From Bacteroidia bacterium (GTDB taxonomy: Bacteria > Bacteroidota > Bacteroidia > SpSt-205), in assembly GCA_026414975.1 (NCBI GenBank), contig JAOAHZ010000001.1, positions 311,547 through 375,546 on the forward strand: a stretch of 64,000 nucleotides of DNA, in the 5' to 3' direction. Positions 10,659 through 17,013 of this stretch are shown piece after piece; the first letter of the stretch is position 1; each line of letters starts with the position of its first letter. A program made the position numbers and the translations under genes. Under the pieces are notes generated by a model that did not search any database, was not told the origin of the DNA, and worked only from the letters and a program-made list of their open reading frames with translations.

Positions 10659-12863
10659 CTATTCCGCAAGTACCACCTTTTGCTGTAGCCTTAGAGCTTC
10701 TTCATCCCTGACTTCCAAAAGATATACACCCTTGGGAAGGCCAGAAAAAGAGATGGGATAGATATCGCTGCCATTCGGACTGAGCCGCTCTTGCCTAAGG
10801 ACTTGCCCTGTAAGGGTGAGCAGCTTATACTCTATCCAACCTGAGTTCACCCCACGAAACCTGATCCAGCCTTCTGCGCCCTGAACTGGATTAGGAGCAA
10901 AAGAGACATGAGGCTGGGAGGCCAGAAGAGATGAAGAGAAGTCGCCATCCGCTACACGCAGGCTGTCGATGTACAATGTATTCCCCATCCCCGTGCGATT
11001 TTCAAAGCGAATAAGCACATTCGTGCCTACGTAAGATGCTGGTATGGCTATTTGTTTTCGGACCCAGCTATTGTTAGCATTCTGAGGGGGTATAAGTTCA
11101 GTAGGGTAGGTAGAAGTTGATGCAATAGCACTTCCTGTTATGTCCAAATCTTCTGCGGCTTCTTCGTAAAGCTTTTGCCAGGATACACCGCAGTCGTTGG
11201 AGATATAAACGGCAAGAGTATCGCCGTATAAGAGCGTAGTATTAGAGGAATTGCCCCAGAGTACTGCACGGTAATGTACATCAAATGAGATGGTGGGGTT
11301 GTTAGCCGAAGAAGGTATGGCAATAGGCGGGGTGATTAGATAGTCCCGCTGACCCCGATTGAAGTATCGGTGGTTGCGGATTCTGACCATGCCGTTGCTA
11401 TTCCCATAACTGCCACGACCTGTAGAGGCATAGCGCTCCCATGTGAGGTTGCTATTCTGAGTAGCGAAATCTGGATTGACTACACGCCATCCTGGGGGTG
11501 GGAAAGTAGTTGCTTCAAACCGTTCCACAAATGGATAGCTAACCACGGCGGATGGGTCCCGTACCACTATGAATCCCGTGTAGGTCGTGTCATCGGTGGC
11601 GAAATGATTTTGTACTTGGAGATAGACGTCATAAGTGCCTGGCGTAGACGGCGCTATGATAGTTGCACAGGGACCCGCATTAGAAGATGCAACGACGGTG
11701 CTACCCTGGCGGATTTCCCACTGAAAAATGTGGGGTTTACCCATGCTGTAGCTGACAAAATTTAAGGCTTGGCCGGGGCACACTACACAGGGAGGTTGCT
11801 CACAGCCCCTTAGGGCGAAGTTAGCTAAGGTGCGTCCCCAAGGACCGGTACCCGTTGCATTAAGGTTGCTGGCTTGCCACTGCTGACGATCCGAAGCTGT
11901 CGCAAGGGCAGCTCTCATTCGGGTGGCTTGCCCTTCAGTAAAGAGGTCCATAGAGCTATCATCTACATAATCCATAAAGTTTCTGACTTGATCAGGTACA
12001 TCCCCACCCAGGATAGCTATATTTTCAGCGCAGGTGTTTTGCCTGCGAGCTGCGCCGTAGTTCGCTTGTCTGCTGGGTGGTGTATCACATACTCTATCAC
12101 CCTGGTTGCCGCAGTTGGAAGAACTCATGCCAGCGCACCCCCCCTGGAAGGTATGGTAAAGGTTGAGGTAGTGTCCATTTTCGTGCGTAGTGGTTTGGCT
12201 TCTCCCAGGAACTCCAAAATAGTCTGCTATAACAATTACCCCCTGTTCCCCCGGAGAACCGCCTGGAAGCGTTGCGACTCCCAGCACGCTGCATCCTGCG
12301 ATAGTTGAGCATAAGGTACGAACGACCCATATGTTTAGATACTGGTTCCGGGGCCATCCAACATTCGCCTTCAAGATATAGTCATTTTCTTGAGAACCAT
12401 CTATATGTACCTCGTTGGAAGTTAATCCAGCGTTGCTGTAGTGGGTGTAGGTTATGCCAGAGTGGGGCATACCTGACGGGTCCTTTGTAGCTAACGAAAA
12501 TTCTATACGGGTATCTACCCCAGAGCTATACCCTTTACTGTAAGGTCGCTTGCGATAGTCGTCAAATAACTCTCGCATCTGATGAAAGACCCGAGAAGCA
12601 GGTATGCTGTCGGGTGCTCCAACGCCTGAGTGGATGATGTGGACGACGACCGGAATAATATACTGGGATGTTTCTGGGCATGTACTAGTGGTACGGAACT
12701 GGGCCCCGTTTGCTTCTATCCAGGCAGCCATTGCAGCTTCAAGCTGCTCGCGAGCTGTAATAATTTGAGGATTCTGTCGAAGCTCTTCTTGTAGATGAAG
12801 GTCGGTGCCGCATATAGGGCGCTGAGCCCATATCACGGCTGCGATGAGAAAAGTGTAACGCAT
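10659..12863 (-). CDS. secreted M43 (cytophagalysin-type) metalloprotease, T9SS type A
   Basis: 734 aa exported zinc protease. The signal peptide ends at 'VIWAQ' (residue 14). The catalytic domain (about 65-320) carries the extended zinc motif HENGHYLNLYH at 227-237 and a Met-turn 'NFMDY' near 297, placing it among pappalysin/cytophagalysin (M43) metzincins. The Gly of HExxHxxGxxH is Asn here, a change I recall from other Bacteroidota M43 proteins. Cys-rich segments around the active site suggest disulfides. A PKD/Ig-like domain follows (about 350-440), then a choice-of-anchor-like jelly roll (443-635), and a type A sorting domain (about 650-734, ending 'LPKGVYLLEV...VVLAE'). It has its own -7 box and a strong terminator, so it is a separate unit behind the J-domain/LRR gene. 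Confidence 0.9.
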   Translation of the reverse strand: MRYTFLIAAVIWAQRPICGTDLHLQEELRQNPQIITAREQLEAAMAAWIEANGAQFRTTSTCPETSQYIIPVVVHIIHSGVGAPDSIPASRVFHQMRELFDDYRKRPYSKGYSSGVDTRIEFSLATKDPSGMPHSGITYTHYSNAGLTSNEVHIDGSQENDYILKANVGWPRNQYLNIWVVRTLCSTIAGCSVLGVATLPGGSPGEQGVIVIADYFGVPGRSQTTTHENGHYLNLYHTFQGGCAGMSSSNCGNQGDRVCDTPPSRQANYGAARRQNTCAENIAILGGDVPDQVRNFMDYVDDSSMDLFTEGQATRMRAALATASDRQQWQASNLNATGTGPWGRTLANFALRGCEQPPCVVCPGQALNFVSYSMGKPHIFQWEIRQGSTVVASSNAGPCATIIAPSTPGTYDVYLQVQNHFATDDTTYTGFIVVRDPSAVVSYPFVERFEATTFPPPGWRVVNPDFATQNSNLTWERYASTGRGSYGNSNGMVRIRNHRYFNRGQRDYLITPPIAIPSSANNPTISFDVHYRAVLWGNSSNTTLLYGDTLAVYISNDCGVSWQKLYEEAAEDLDITGSAIASTSTYPTELIPPQNANNSWVRKQIAIPASYVGTNVLIRFENRTGMGNTLYIDSLRVADGDFSSSLLASQPHVSFAPNPVQGAEGWIRFRGVNSGWIEYKLLTLTGQVLRQERLSPNGSDIYPISFSGLPKGVYLLEVRDEEALRLQQKVVLAE

Positions 12864-12887: not shown

Positions 12888-13709
12888 TTAGGTAGGTGAG
12901 TCCCAAAGAACTTCGCAGGCGCACTCTTGACGAAACCTTTTCAAACGTTCCTGACATGCAGGTGAAAGGGGATTTTTCCTAACATCCAGTAGCTTTAGAT
13001 TCGGCAGAGTGAATACCTCTTCTGGTAGATCGCTAAGTTGATTGCCTTGCAAAACTAAACGGCGTAGCGCTTTGAGTTCACCGATACCCAAAGGTAGACA
13101 CCGAATGTTATTATAGGCTAAGTCAAGCTCCTCCAAGCGTGAGAAGTGAAAAATTCGAGAAGGCAAGCTGGAAAGTTTATTGTGAGAGAGGTCTAAGACT
13201 ATCAAACCTGAAGAGCCATATAGCTCAGTCGGAAAGGTGGTAAGATGGTTGTGAGAGAGGTCTGCTTTTCGGAGAGTAGAAGGCAGGTGAAGATAAGGAG
13301 GGATTCTGTTTAGTTTTAGGTCATTCAAACTCAGCTTATGAAATGTAAAGGGGTGCATCCAGTGATAAAGCACGGTCATAGTAAAAACTAAAGCCAGAAG
13401 AATCACCAATACAATTTGAGAAGCGGTAGTTTGCTGTGTGGTGAAGGTAGATTGGGGGGATGAGAAGGGGGTAGAGCTGCGGCGTGCTACATGCGCAGCC
13501 AATCGTAGGTGATAGGCTAAACGCAGATGAGGCGTGGTCAAGACCCGGTAAGCTTCGTTGAGACGCTGCATTTGCTCCTGCGCATCAGGGGCAGGATTCA
13601 CATCGGGGTGTAGGACCTTAGCTAACTCTCTATATCGCTGCCTGATTAATGACTCGGATGCACCAAAGGGTAACCCAAAGAGATCATAATAAGTTTGGAT
13701 GCGGCGCAT
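12888..13709 (-). CDS. membrane protein with N-terminal J-domain and C-terminal leucine-rich repeats
   Basis: 273 aa fusion protein of unknown role. Residues 5-70 are a J-domain: 'YYDLFGLPFGASESLIRQRYRELAKVL' leads into the HPD tripeptide at 34-36, then helix III 'MQRLNEAYRVL'. A Ser/Thr/Gln-rich linker follows, then one transmembrane helix at about 98-118. Residues 122-245 hold five or six short LRRs of the type LxxLDLSHNKLSSLPxxI. The HPD motif implies contact with a DnaK-type Hsp70. The basic linker before the helix suggests a cytoplasmic J-domain and extracytoplasmic LRRs (inference). No Gly/Phe or zinc-finger domain is present, so it is not DnaJ itself. It starts 4 nt after the ribE stop and is probably co-transcribed with it. 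I do not recognise a described family with this order. Confidence 0.85.
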   Translation of the reverse strand: MRRIQTYYDLFGLPFGASESLIRQRYRELAKVLHPDVNPAPDAQEQMQRLNEAYRVLTTPHLRLAYHLRLAAHVARRSSTPFSSPQSTFTTQQTTASQIVLVILLALVFTMTVLYHWMHPFTFHKLSLNDLKLNRIPPYLHLPSTLRKADLSHNHLTTFPTELYGSSGLIVLDLSHNKLSSLPSRIFHFSRLEELDLAYNNIRCLPLGIGELKALRRLVLQGNQLSDLPEEVFTLPNLKLLDVRKNPLSPACQERLKRFRQECACEVLWDSPT

Positions 13710-13713
13710 AGAT

Positions 13714-14334
13714 TCAGGAAGACTCTACTGCTGGCAGTCTAAGCCCATATTGCTGGGCCCATTTCCACAGGTATTTAGCCATGATATCAAACTCTACATT
13801 CACGCGATCGCCACGCTTGAGCCTGGCAAAAGTGGTGTGCTGAAAAGTCCAAGGGATAATAGCTACCCGAAAGGCTTCCCGTTCCACATTGGCGACTGTA
13901 AGGCTGACGCCGTTTATAGCGATAGAGCCTTTTTCTACTACGTAAGGAGCCCATGGCTCAGGGAGAGAAAAGGTAAAGTAATAGCTCTCACCTCCCACTC
14001 GGCTAATCTCTAAGACCTCCAAAGTCGTATCTATGTGCCCTTGTACGATATGTCCCTCTAAGCGAGCCCCGATGGGCAGGGCTCGTTCTAAGTTTATTCC
14101 ATCGCCTAAGTCGCGTTCGCCCAAGGTAGTCCGAACAAGGGTCTCATGCACAGCCTCTACACAATAGAACCGATGTTTGATAGCAATGACAGACAAGCAG
14201 GCGCCGTCATGGGCTATGCTGTTTCCAAGCGATAGGGCATCTACGAAAGGGGCTTGTATCCAGAAGCGCCGTCCTGAGGCCATCGTCTCTATGGCTTGTA
14301 TCGTTCCTACAGCTTCTACTATTCCTGAAAACAT
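13714..14334 (-). CDS. ribE: riboflavin synthase, alpha subunit
   Basis: 206 aa enzyme that dismutates two 6,7-dimethyl-8-ribityllumazines to riboflavin. It has the canonical start 'MFSGIVEAVG' and two tandem lumazine-binding domains of about 95 residues. 'GSIAINGVSLTV' marks the second domain and 'VNVEFDIMAKYL' the end. It starts 3 nt after the stop of the type B T9SS gene and ends 4 nt before the J-domain/LRR gene. No -7 box or FMN riboswitch is visible upstream, so it depends on the T9SS gene transcript. Other rib genes are not in the window. Confidence 0.96.
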   Translation of the reverse strand: MFSGIVEAVGTIQAIETMASGRRFWIQAPFVDALSLGNSIAHDGACLSVIAIKHRFYCVEAVHETLVRTTLGERDLGDGINLERALPIGARLEGHIVQGHIDTTLEVLEISRVGGESYYFTFSLPEPWAPYVVEKGSIAINGVSLTVANVEREAFRVAIIPWTFQHTTFARLKRGDRVNVEFDIMAKYLWKWAQQYGLRLPAVESS

Positions 14335-14337
14335 AGT

Positions 14338-17013
14338 TCAACGCAGTAAAGTGATAGGACCAGCTTTACGATAAGAGCGAGGCTCTCTTGTCTCCAGCTC
14401 GGCTTCTATGACGAAGTAATAAGTACCTTCGGGGGCTGGGCGTCCGCGGTGAGACCCATCCCATAGGTTGTCTATATCTCTACTTTCACTGACTAAGCCT
14501 CCCCACCGGTCGTAAATCCAACAGCGTATAGAGCGTATATTTCGGTAGATAAAGGGGCGGAACACATCATTTATACCATCTCCATTCGGGGTAAAGGTGT
14601 TAGGTAGCATGAGGACAGGGCAGTTATCAAAGCAAATGGGGGCGCCCAAAGGGCTTTCATTGCCGCTGGTATCACGGGCGGTGAGAGCAAAGCAAAAATT
14701 GAGTGTATTAGGAGCGCGCCAACGGAAGCGGCGTTGAGGCTCTTGTACATAACTCAGAAGGGTGTATGGACCATTGGGTTGCTCAGCTAAATATACACCG
14801 TAGCTTCCTACATCTCCTCCACACGTGCTATCTGGAGCCTCCCAGCGAATATCTACAACATAAGCCTCGCAATCTGCTTCTGCTTGATAACTCGTAGGGT
14901 CAGGCAGGCAAGGAGGGGTTGTGTCCCGCGGTGCTTCGCAGGCTTTATTAGAGGCATTCCACAAAGGCGAGCGGACTCCGTTGACCCCATAAGATCCACG
15001 GCTCAGAATGTAATAGCAGTAAGTCTGGTCATTTTGAAGCCCATAGTCTACATAAGTAAAGACTTGACGGCCCGTTGCTTGAACGGGTATAGCTGCAATC
15101 TGAACGAAGGGGCTGGGCTGGGGAGGATCGGCGCGGTAAATGAAAAAGGTATCATTAGTCCAAGGCACATTCTGCTCCCATCGAAGGACGAGAGCTCCGT
15201 CTCGAGGCTGAATAGTAAGAAATAGGCTAGTGGCCGTATTACTGGAAGCTACTTCTCGTCCTGTCCCATCTAAAAGACGCACCCGATATCGGTAGGGACG
15301 TGTACTAGTGGATAAGCCGCCTTGATCTAAATAGCCATCCGTAGTCAAACCTGTAGCGATTGTTTGAAAGTTCGTCCCCGTGAAGCCTTCCGTTCGCTCC
15401 AGCGTATAAGTATAAGGAGGCGGGAAAAAAGTGCTGTCTAAAATTAGGGGCGCTTGCCAAGCTACCCAGATGGCGCCGTTCGTGCCATCCGTGGTGTGGA
15501 CACTATCCTGAAGCATAAGGGGAAAATTGATAGGTAAAGTGATACAAGCCTCCTCACTTGGGCAGCTTAGACTACCTCTGTACCGAGCTCGTATGCGATA
15601 GCAGTACTGAGGACTAAACTCCAAATCCGCATCCGTATAGGTCGTAACAGAGCCCAGAACAGTGGCAACTAACTCATAGCCTGTCAAGGGAGCTCTACAA
15701 CAGGGGGTATCTACATAGCTTCGAGGGGCTGGAGAACGATATATTTCATAAGCATCGGGTGGACAAGCTGCGGGTTGCCAGCTCAAAGTAATCTGACGAG
15801 GTCCCGGTGTTAGAGTCAGTCCTGAGGGAGGAGGGCCTATCACATAAATCCTCGTTACAGCATTGGCAGCGAGGGGGGGACGATATTGAAGGTTATCGTG
15901 AGCATACCAGTCTATCTGATAAAAGTTGGCTCGGATGTGTTCGCACACTGTTTGCCAGTTGAGGGTTGCGCTTACTTCAGGTGGATTGACAGCTGTAAGA
16001 GGAAATGTATTAGGGAGGATGGTAGCAGGGCTGGGTTGGGCCTGAAAAGGGCCGTTGAAACCAAGTCCAGCGTTGTTTAGGTAGAAATAAATGCTGTCTC
16101 GGGCATCAGGGTCATAGGCTCGCACAGGAAAAGTTAGGCGTCGCCCGGCTGTGATGCAGGTTTCAGCTGGGGCTTCTATCACAGGAGGGCGATTTTGGCA
16201 GGGCGATACGAAAATCGCCATGTCGCGAACTACATACCCTATGCGGCGTCCATTTCGGTACTCCTCTATGAGGATGGCGATATTGTAGACCCCTACCTGC
16301 TGAGGCGTATCCCATGTAATCAGTCCCGTTTGTCTGTCAATAGTAAAGGTTCCCCCAAAAGCATCGGGGAAGCGATAATTGGCGACGGGGATAGGATTCT
16401 GCATCACGCCGGGGTCGTACTGCCGGCAGGGAATCAAGCTATACACTAAAGAGTCCCCATCCGGATCGTATGCGCCGGGATTGTGTGTCCATAAGCGCCC
16501 AATGCAGGCGTCGTCTATGGGCTCGTTGAGTAGAATGGGGGAGTTATTTATACCGATGAAGGGGTTATTATTGAGGAGGGTCTCTACGTAAAATGAGCTA
16601 GCTCCTGAATTGGTCATGTTACGCACATTTTCCACGCGGGCGAAGTCAGCAAAACGCAGCTCGTACGAGCCGGGTCCTGGAAGAGTGATTTCTACAGTGT
16701 AGTCGCTGCGCTTGACACGAGGGCGCAGTCGCGTGCCGATGCGGGCGGGGGCATTACAACCAGGCCCACTGGGACCATTGGATCGGGGTATGTTGGTATA
16801 AGCAGCAACGAAAGTCTTTGTATTCCCAATCACGCTCCAGACCTCTAAATCTACAAAACAGCGGTCCACCCCAGCCGCAGCGGAGTCAGAATAATACGTA
16901 ATCGTGACGCGGTATCGGTTTGGAGCAATGTAGGTATAGCTGATTTGGCCTGCGAGTCCATGGGTCGCTCGCAAGGTTGGTAGCAGCAGGAGAAAGGGGA
17001 GGACTTTCCGCAT
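14338..17013 (-). CDS. secreted T9SS type B protein with fibronectin-type domains
   Basis: 891 aa secreted protein. A signal peptide (1-about 19) is followed by the 'GQISYTYIAPNRYRVTITYYSDS' domain that starts many Bacteroidota gliding-associated surface proteins. Residues up to about 380 contain cadherin-like segments ('AYDPDARDSIYF'). From about 390 to 790 there are several fibronectin type III-like modules ('GLTLTPGPRQITLSWQP', 'DGALVLRWEQN', 'VVDIRWEAP'). The last 90 residues are a type B sorting domain with 'LPNTFTPNGDGINDVF' and 'YDRWGG'. It is likely a surface adhesin or matrix protein; no catalytic motif is seen. The -7 element is weaker (TTATTTTG) and 10 nt from the ATG. It heads the transcript that includes ribE. 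Confidence 0.9.
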   Translation of the reverse strand: MRKVLPFLLLLPTLRATHGLAGQISYTYIAPNRYRVTITYYSDSAAAGVDRCFVDLEVWSVIGNTKTFVAAYTNIPRSNGPSGPGCNAPARIGTRLRPRVKRSDYTVEITLPGPGSYELRFADFARVENVRNMTNSGASSFYVETLLNNNPFIGINNSPILLNEPIDDACIGRLWTHNPGAYDPDGDSLVYSLIPCRQYDPGVMQNPIPVANYRFPDAFGGTFTIDRQTGLITWDTPQQVGVYNIAILIEEYRNGRRIGYVVRDMAIFVSPCQNRPPVIEAPAETCITAGRRLTFPVRAYDPDARDSIYFYLNNAGLGFNGPFQAQPSPATILPNTFPLTAVNPPEVSATLNWQTVCEHIRANFYQIDWYAHDNLQYRPPLAANAVTRIYVIGPPPSGLTLTPGPRQITLSWQPAACPPDAYEIYRSPAPRSYVDTPCCRAPLTGYELVATVLGSVTTYTDADLEFSPQYCYRIRARYRGSLSCPSEEACITLPINFPLMLQDSVHTTDGTNGAIWVAWQAPLILDSTFFPPPYTYTLERTEGFTGTNFQTIATGLTTDGYLDQGGLSTSTRPYRYRVRLLDGTGREVASSNTATSLFLTIQPRDGALVLRWEQNVPWTNDTFFIYRADPPQPSPFVQIAAIPVQATGRQVFTYVDYGLQNDQTYCYYILSRGSYGVNGVRSPLWNASNKACEAPRDTTPPCLPDPTSYQAEADCEAYVVDIRWEAPDSTCGGDVGSYGVYLAEQPNGPYTLLSYVQEPQRRFRWRAPNTLNFCFALTARDTSGNESPLGAPICFDNCPVLMLPNTFTPNGDGINDVFRPFIYRNIRSIRCWIYDRWGGLVSESRDIDNLWDGSHRGRPAPEGTYYFVIEAELETREPRSYRKAGPITLLR

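Follow-up and report, generated by a model that had tools for sequence, protein, structure and literature searches.

A Bacteroidia protein joining a J-domain, a predicted membrane helix and leucine-rich repeats: a candidate recruiter of DnaK to the inner membrane

The window analysed here is a stretch of 64,000 nucleotides of DNA from a Bacteroidia bacterium. On its minus strand, a gene at 12888..13709 starts with ATG and encodes a product of 273 amino acids in which a J-domain, a linker, a predicted membrane helix and a leucine-rich repeat (LRR) domain follow one another (hereafter the J-TM-LRR protein). The gene was delimited by its open reading frame, by Pfam matches and by orthologues in 11 further genomes. 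The J-domain (aa 5–76; 13482..13697) matched Pfam DnaJ at residues 6–66 with 57.9 bits (cut-off 27.8), and 27 of its 72 columns were invariant; the HPD motif lies at residues 34–36 (about 13602–13610). Pfam LRR_8 matched three stretches of the protein, the top one being residues 169–225 with 80.5 bits (cut-off 27). Neither Pfam nor the structure gave a client-binding beta-sandwich domain or a zinc finger after the J-domain, and only the DnaJ and LRR families were found. No curated NCBIfam family matched the whole protein at its cut-off; effector-named NCBIfam matches were rejected as generic LRR matches, far under cut-off.

An AlphaFold2 model of the window's protein, built on 11 orthologues, had a mean pLDDT of 89. 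The J-domain was modelled as four helices (residues 7–11, 19–33, 43–58 and 60–78), with the HPD motif between helices II and III. The linker (aa 77–94; 13428..13481) was disordered at residues 80–93, where the pLDDT fell below 50, and was followed by a helix at residues 95–118 (13356..13427), the predicted membrane helix. The LRR domain (aa 119–249; 12963..13355) consists of six 23-residue units, the strands starting at residues 125, 148, 171, 194, 217 and 240, that is, with a spacing of exactly 23 residues. A C-terminal cap and tail (aa 250–273; 12891..12962) follow these strands, with a helix at 250–262 and a strand at 266–268. The J-domain with HPD at residues 34–36 and the LRR domain of five to six units, both proposed in the initial annotation, are thus borne out by Pfam and the model. 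A Ser/Thr/Gln linker had also been proposed: the linker stands, but this composition is peculiar to the window's copy. Similarly, the single membrane helix was recovered, with bounds nearer to 95–118 than to the 98–118 first given.

Full-length orthologues, 43–58% identical, were present in 12 of 12 genomes of the family, the others being 10 of the same genus and one of a sister genus. Named records of this lineage are uncultured Bacteroidia metagenome-assembled genomes, for example KatS3mg025, KatS3mg026 and SKYB87. The full-length orthologues in 11 further genomes led us to reject an assembly chimera or a chance open reading frame. A single in-frame TGA lies directly after the membrane helix in the orthologue of one genome (G006, locus L008), where the LRR part is intact downstream; either a sequencing error or a recent nonsense mutation may account for it. 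Compared with the window's copy, mean identity was 70% for the J-domain, 49% for the LRR domain, 31% for the helix and 8% for the linker, so that conservation is highest in the J-domain. Codon position 3 was the most variable in both domains, as expected for a coding gene under purifying selection.

When the family profile was searched against 395 genomes of the class, full-length matches were confined to this family. Another order also has J-TM-LRR proteins, found in two genomes of a single genus, G059 (L170:751-1686) and G240 (L174:413-1357). These two proteins are 67% identical to each other and 26% identical to the window's, and the AlphaFold2 model of the G059 protein (mean pLDDT 78) contained the same elements. 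With the second lineage added to the profile, 14 of the 395 class genomes were positive, in two lineages, and the extended profile found no further J-TM-LRR protein among 396 genomes of the phylum. Both genome sets are samples, and distant members could escape, as the G059 protein escaped the first profile. The HPD motif was invariant in the 12 family genomes and in both second-lineage members; homologues conserving HPD and the helix, which the initial annotation had named as support, therefore exist within the family and beyond it. A scan of all prokaryote genomes found an open reading frame with both domains only in this family's four loci, among the 80 loci kept, and a plasmid search found no place covering 80% of the protein. 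In a J-domain tree with few columns and weak resolution, the family fell outside the DnaJ/CbpA group. As to the origin of the fusion, the two lineages' J-domains may represent one clade or two: a single clade was neither rejected (AU p = 0.19) nor demonstrated.

The HPD motif, YRELA and the equivalents of DnaJ R22, Y25 and K26 were kept in all orthologues, the positions of Escherichia coli DnaJ R22 and K26 being lysine or arginine in 11 of 11. The positively charged residues of DnaJ helices II and III that contact DnaK are R22, K26, R27, K48 and K51, according to the review PMC8215388. In 11 of 11 orthologues the R27 position is occupied by glutamate and the K51 position by asparagine, and the K48 position is glutamine or arginine. 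The window's genome contains one DnaK-type Hsp70 and, separately, genes for DnaJ and a CbpA-like protein. A second Hsp70 match was weak (29 bits) and probably reflects an actin-like protein, for example MreB. Because there is a single Hsp70 gene in the genome, DnaK would be the only evident partner of the J-domain, if this domain works.

The membrane topology was considered next to that of similar proteins. Hydropathy gave one hydrophobic helix per orthologue in 11 of 11. In 10 of 11 orthologues, lysine and arginine residues within 25 residues of the helix were more numerous on the side of the J-domain; the window's own copy has three on each side. The protein has no signal peptide, its N-terminus being the folded J-domain, and a folded J-domain without a signal peptide ahead of a single helix implies an N-in, C-out orientation. 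Among standalone Bacteroidia LRR proteins matching the LRR half, 27 of 28 have a signal-peptide-like N-terminus. The missing signal peptide, the J-side positive charge and the signal peptides of the similar standalone proteins together favour a J-domain inside the cell and an LRR domain in the periplasm. This was one of two topologies offered in the initial annotation; the other, with both domains facing inward, is less favoured on the same evidence.

The riboflavin synthase gene ribE (13714..14334, minus strand; two Lum_binding matches) lies 4 bases upstream of the J-TM-LRR gene, and the two are probably co-transcribed in the window. The same adjacency was seen in 4 of 12 family genomes, namely the window's and three relatives. 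In six relatives (L037, L039–L043) the J-TM-LRR gene is instead divergent from a gene for a Wzi-like (capsule assembly) outer-membrane protein, whose Pfam matches are slightly under cut-off and which sometimes has nucleotide-sugar genes nearby. Neither neighbour was accepted as a functional link. For riboflavin, the ribE adjacency holds in only 4 of 12 genomes and a link to ribF is a feature of the standalone LRR proteins; in the window's genome, about 214 kb separate the Wzi-like gene from the J-TM-LRR gene. The gene context is unconserved and points to no partner. Promoter and terminator scans found none, and no other LRR_8 protein was found in the window's genome. The products of the flanking genes at 10659-12863 and 14338-17013 (minus strand) look like type IX secretion cargo: an M43 peptidase that weakly matches Por_Secre_tail, and a CHU_C protein carrying an fn3 domain.

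Outside the family, 28 of the 36 Bacteroidia loci examined (L016–L022, L025–L027, L029–L031, L141–L143 and L146–L157) have a gene for an LRR protein of about 200 amino acids with a signal peptide immediately downstream of ribF (riboflavin kinase/FAD synthetase), in most cases no more than 30 bases away or overlapping it; we found no description of this link in the literature. Next to the family's own ribF, no LRR gene was seen in the inspected copies, and in G000 this ribF is on another contig (C46). With a profile of the ribF-linked LRRs, the family's LRRs scored 89–120 bits and unrelated LRR proteins 72–202 bits. Capture of a ribF-linked LRR as the source of the LRR half is not supported by these scores, since other LRR proteins score equally or higher.

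With moderate confidence, we read the J-TM-LRR protein as a single-pass inner-membrane class C J-domain protein whose LRR domain would select the inner-membrane sites to which it recruits DnaK. The N-terminal J-domain would stimulate the cell's only DnaK-type Hsp70 in the cytoplasm, with the flexible linker lending it reach. The predicted periplasmic LRR domain of six units would bind a putative partner and fix the position of the protein, and DnaK action would thereby be focused on a single inner-membrane location. We infer the orientation, DnaK as partner and the LRR as targeting device from several lines of evidence. The J-domain is over cut-off, retains HPD, YRELA, R22, Y25 and K26, and shows the highest conservation; a single DnaK-type Hsp70 is encoded in the genome; the helix is hydrophobic in 11 of 11 orthologues, with the J-side charge in 10 of 11; among the similar standalone LRR proteins, 27 of 28 begin with a signal-peptide-like stretch; and both the J-TM-LRR layout in another order and J-TM proteins elsewhere in Bacteroidota are consistent with this reading. 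Against it stand the charge tie in the window's copy, the unconserved gene context and the changes at R27 and K51, both of which are among the five positive DnaJ residues given as DnaK contacts in PMC8215388.

These same two changes, found in all orthologues, would fit a J-domain that has lost Hsp70 stimulation and acts as a cytoplasmic anchor or protein–protein module, leaving the LRR as the working end; moreover, the genome also encodes DnaJ and a CbpA-like protein that could serve DnaK. We consider such a loss unlikely, as HPD is invariant across two lineages and conservation is higher in the J-domain than in the LRR. It is slightly more doubtful that both domains are cytoplasmic, with the helix embedded in the membrane or lying on it but not crossing it, and the LRR picking DnaK clients at the inner face. 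The weak charge bias of the window's protein would allow this arrangement, and LRR domains of the same fold also act inside cells, for example SHOC2, which was among the Foldseek matches of the LRR part. However, every orthologue has a hydrophobic helix of 24 residues, 10 of 11 being more positive on the J-domain side of it, and signal peptides are found on similar standalone LRR proteins. That export route also bears on the idea that the J-domain acts only in cis, bringing DnaK to its own chain during insertion or export of the LRR, with no later role. The tail-anchored J-domain protein DjlC is among the proteins that Hsp70 guides to the membrane (PMC8215388), but similar LRR proteins are exported by an ordinary signal peptide without any J-domain, and we hold a purely cis role to be very improbable. 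Overlapping with the recruitment of DnaK that we prefer, the protein might be a receptor spanning the membrane: a ligand bound by the periplasmic LRR, or clustering of that domain, would alter where or how strongly the J-domain engages DnaK. The initial annotation had raised such a link from an envelope signal to cytoplasmic DnaK, which is speculative. We put forward this receptor role only tentatively, as an improbable extension; if true, the state of the envelope would be read through the Hsp70 machine and not through a kinase or a sigma factor.

Class C J-domain proteins resemble DnaJ in the J-domain only and can carry interaction domains and membrane segments, as described in PMC8215388. 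The J-TM-LRR protein matches this description, and is assigned to class C by exclusion because the class A and B domains are absent. The accessible part of the review names no LRR-bearing class C member. E. coli DjlB and DjlC have an N-terminal cytoplasmic J-domain and a single membrane anchor (in part from PMC8215388), a layout that resembles the J-TM-LRR protein. DjlC has been shown to work with HscC, and DjlB is assumed to (PMC8215388), whereas the only Hsp70 of the genome studied here is of the DnaK type. Moreover, DjlB and DjlC are tail-anchored (PMC8215388). In the J-TM-LRR protein the helix, at 95–118 of 273, is not C-terminal but is followed by a further 155 residues that include the six LRRs; the protein is therefore not DjlB/DjlC-like. 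These known bacterial membrane J-domain proteins of the same order stop at the anchor, and a conserved protein with a J-domain in the cytoplasm and a folded binding domain across the membrane would directly link Hsp70 and the cell envelope. In E. coli DjlA, the membrane segment is N-terminal, the J-domain C-terminal and an LRR absent. The order is reversed in the J-TM-LRR protein (J-domain at 6–66, helix after), which is thus not DjlA-like, although DjlA is also a membrane-bound J-domain protein and works with DnaK (PMC8215388).

On the LRR side, the nearest solved structures found by Foldseek were Leptospira LRR proteins (4u09, 4u06, 4u08 and 4tzh), which share the LRR fold but have no J-domain, the match being restricted to the LRR part. 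The top class-wide matches of the LRR half were the ribF-linked secreted proteins of Bacteroidia, which are similar in repeat number and C-terminal cap but have a signal peptide in place of the J-domain and helix. A similar overall layout was seen in three Bacteroidota J-TM proteins (L081:5989-6999, L167:725-1660 and L169:662-1627), which have an N-terminal J-domain, one helix and a C-terminal domain. This last is a beta domain that is not an LRR and matches no Pfam family, and their J-domains fall within the DnaJ/CbpA group. At all three loci the gene is directly upstream of typA (TypA/BipA-like GTPase). At a further locus (L190, genome G166) two J-TM proteins are encoded in tandem, with extra hydrophobic stretches at their C-terminal ends. 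The initial annotation's view that no described bacterial family has the J-TM-LRR order fits our NCBIfam search and the literature searched, in which no such protein is described (the survey of Barriot et al. 2020 and PMC10410713 lie outside that coverage). As far as checked, the combination of J-domain, helix and LRR is therefore new within a known kind of J-domain protein, and the occurrence elsewhere in Bacteroidota of a similar layout ending in another kind of C-terminal domain suggests that the design recurs.
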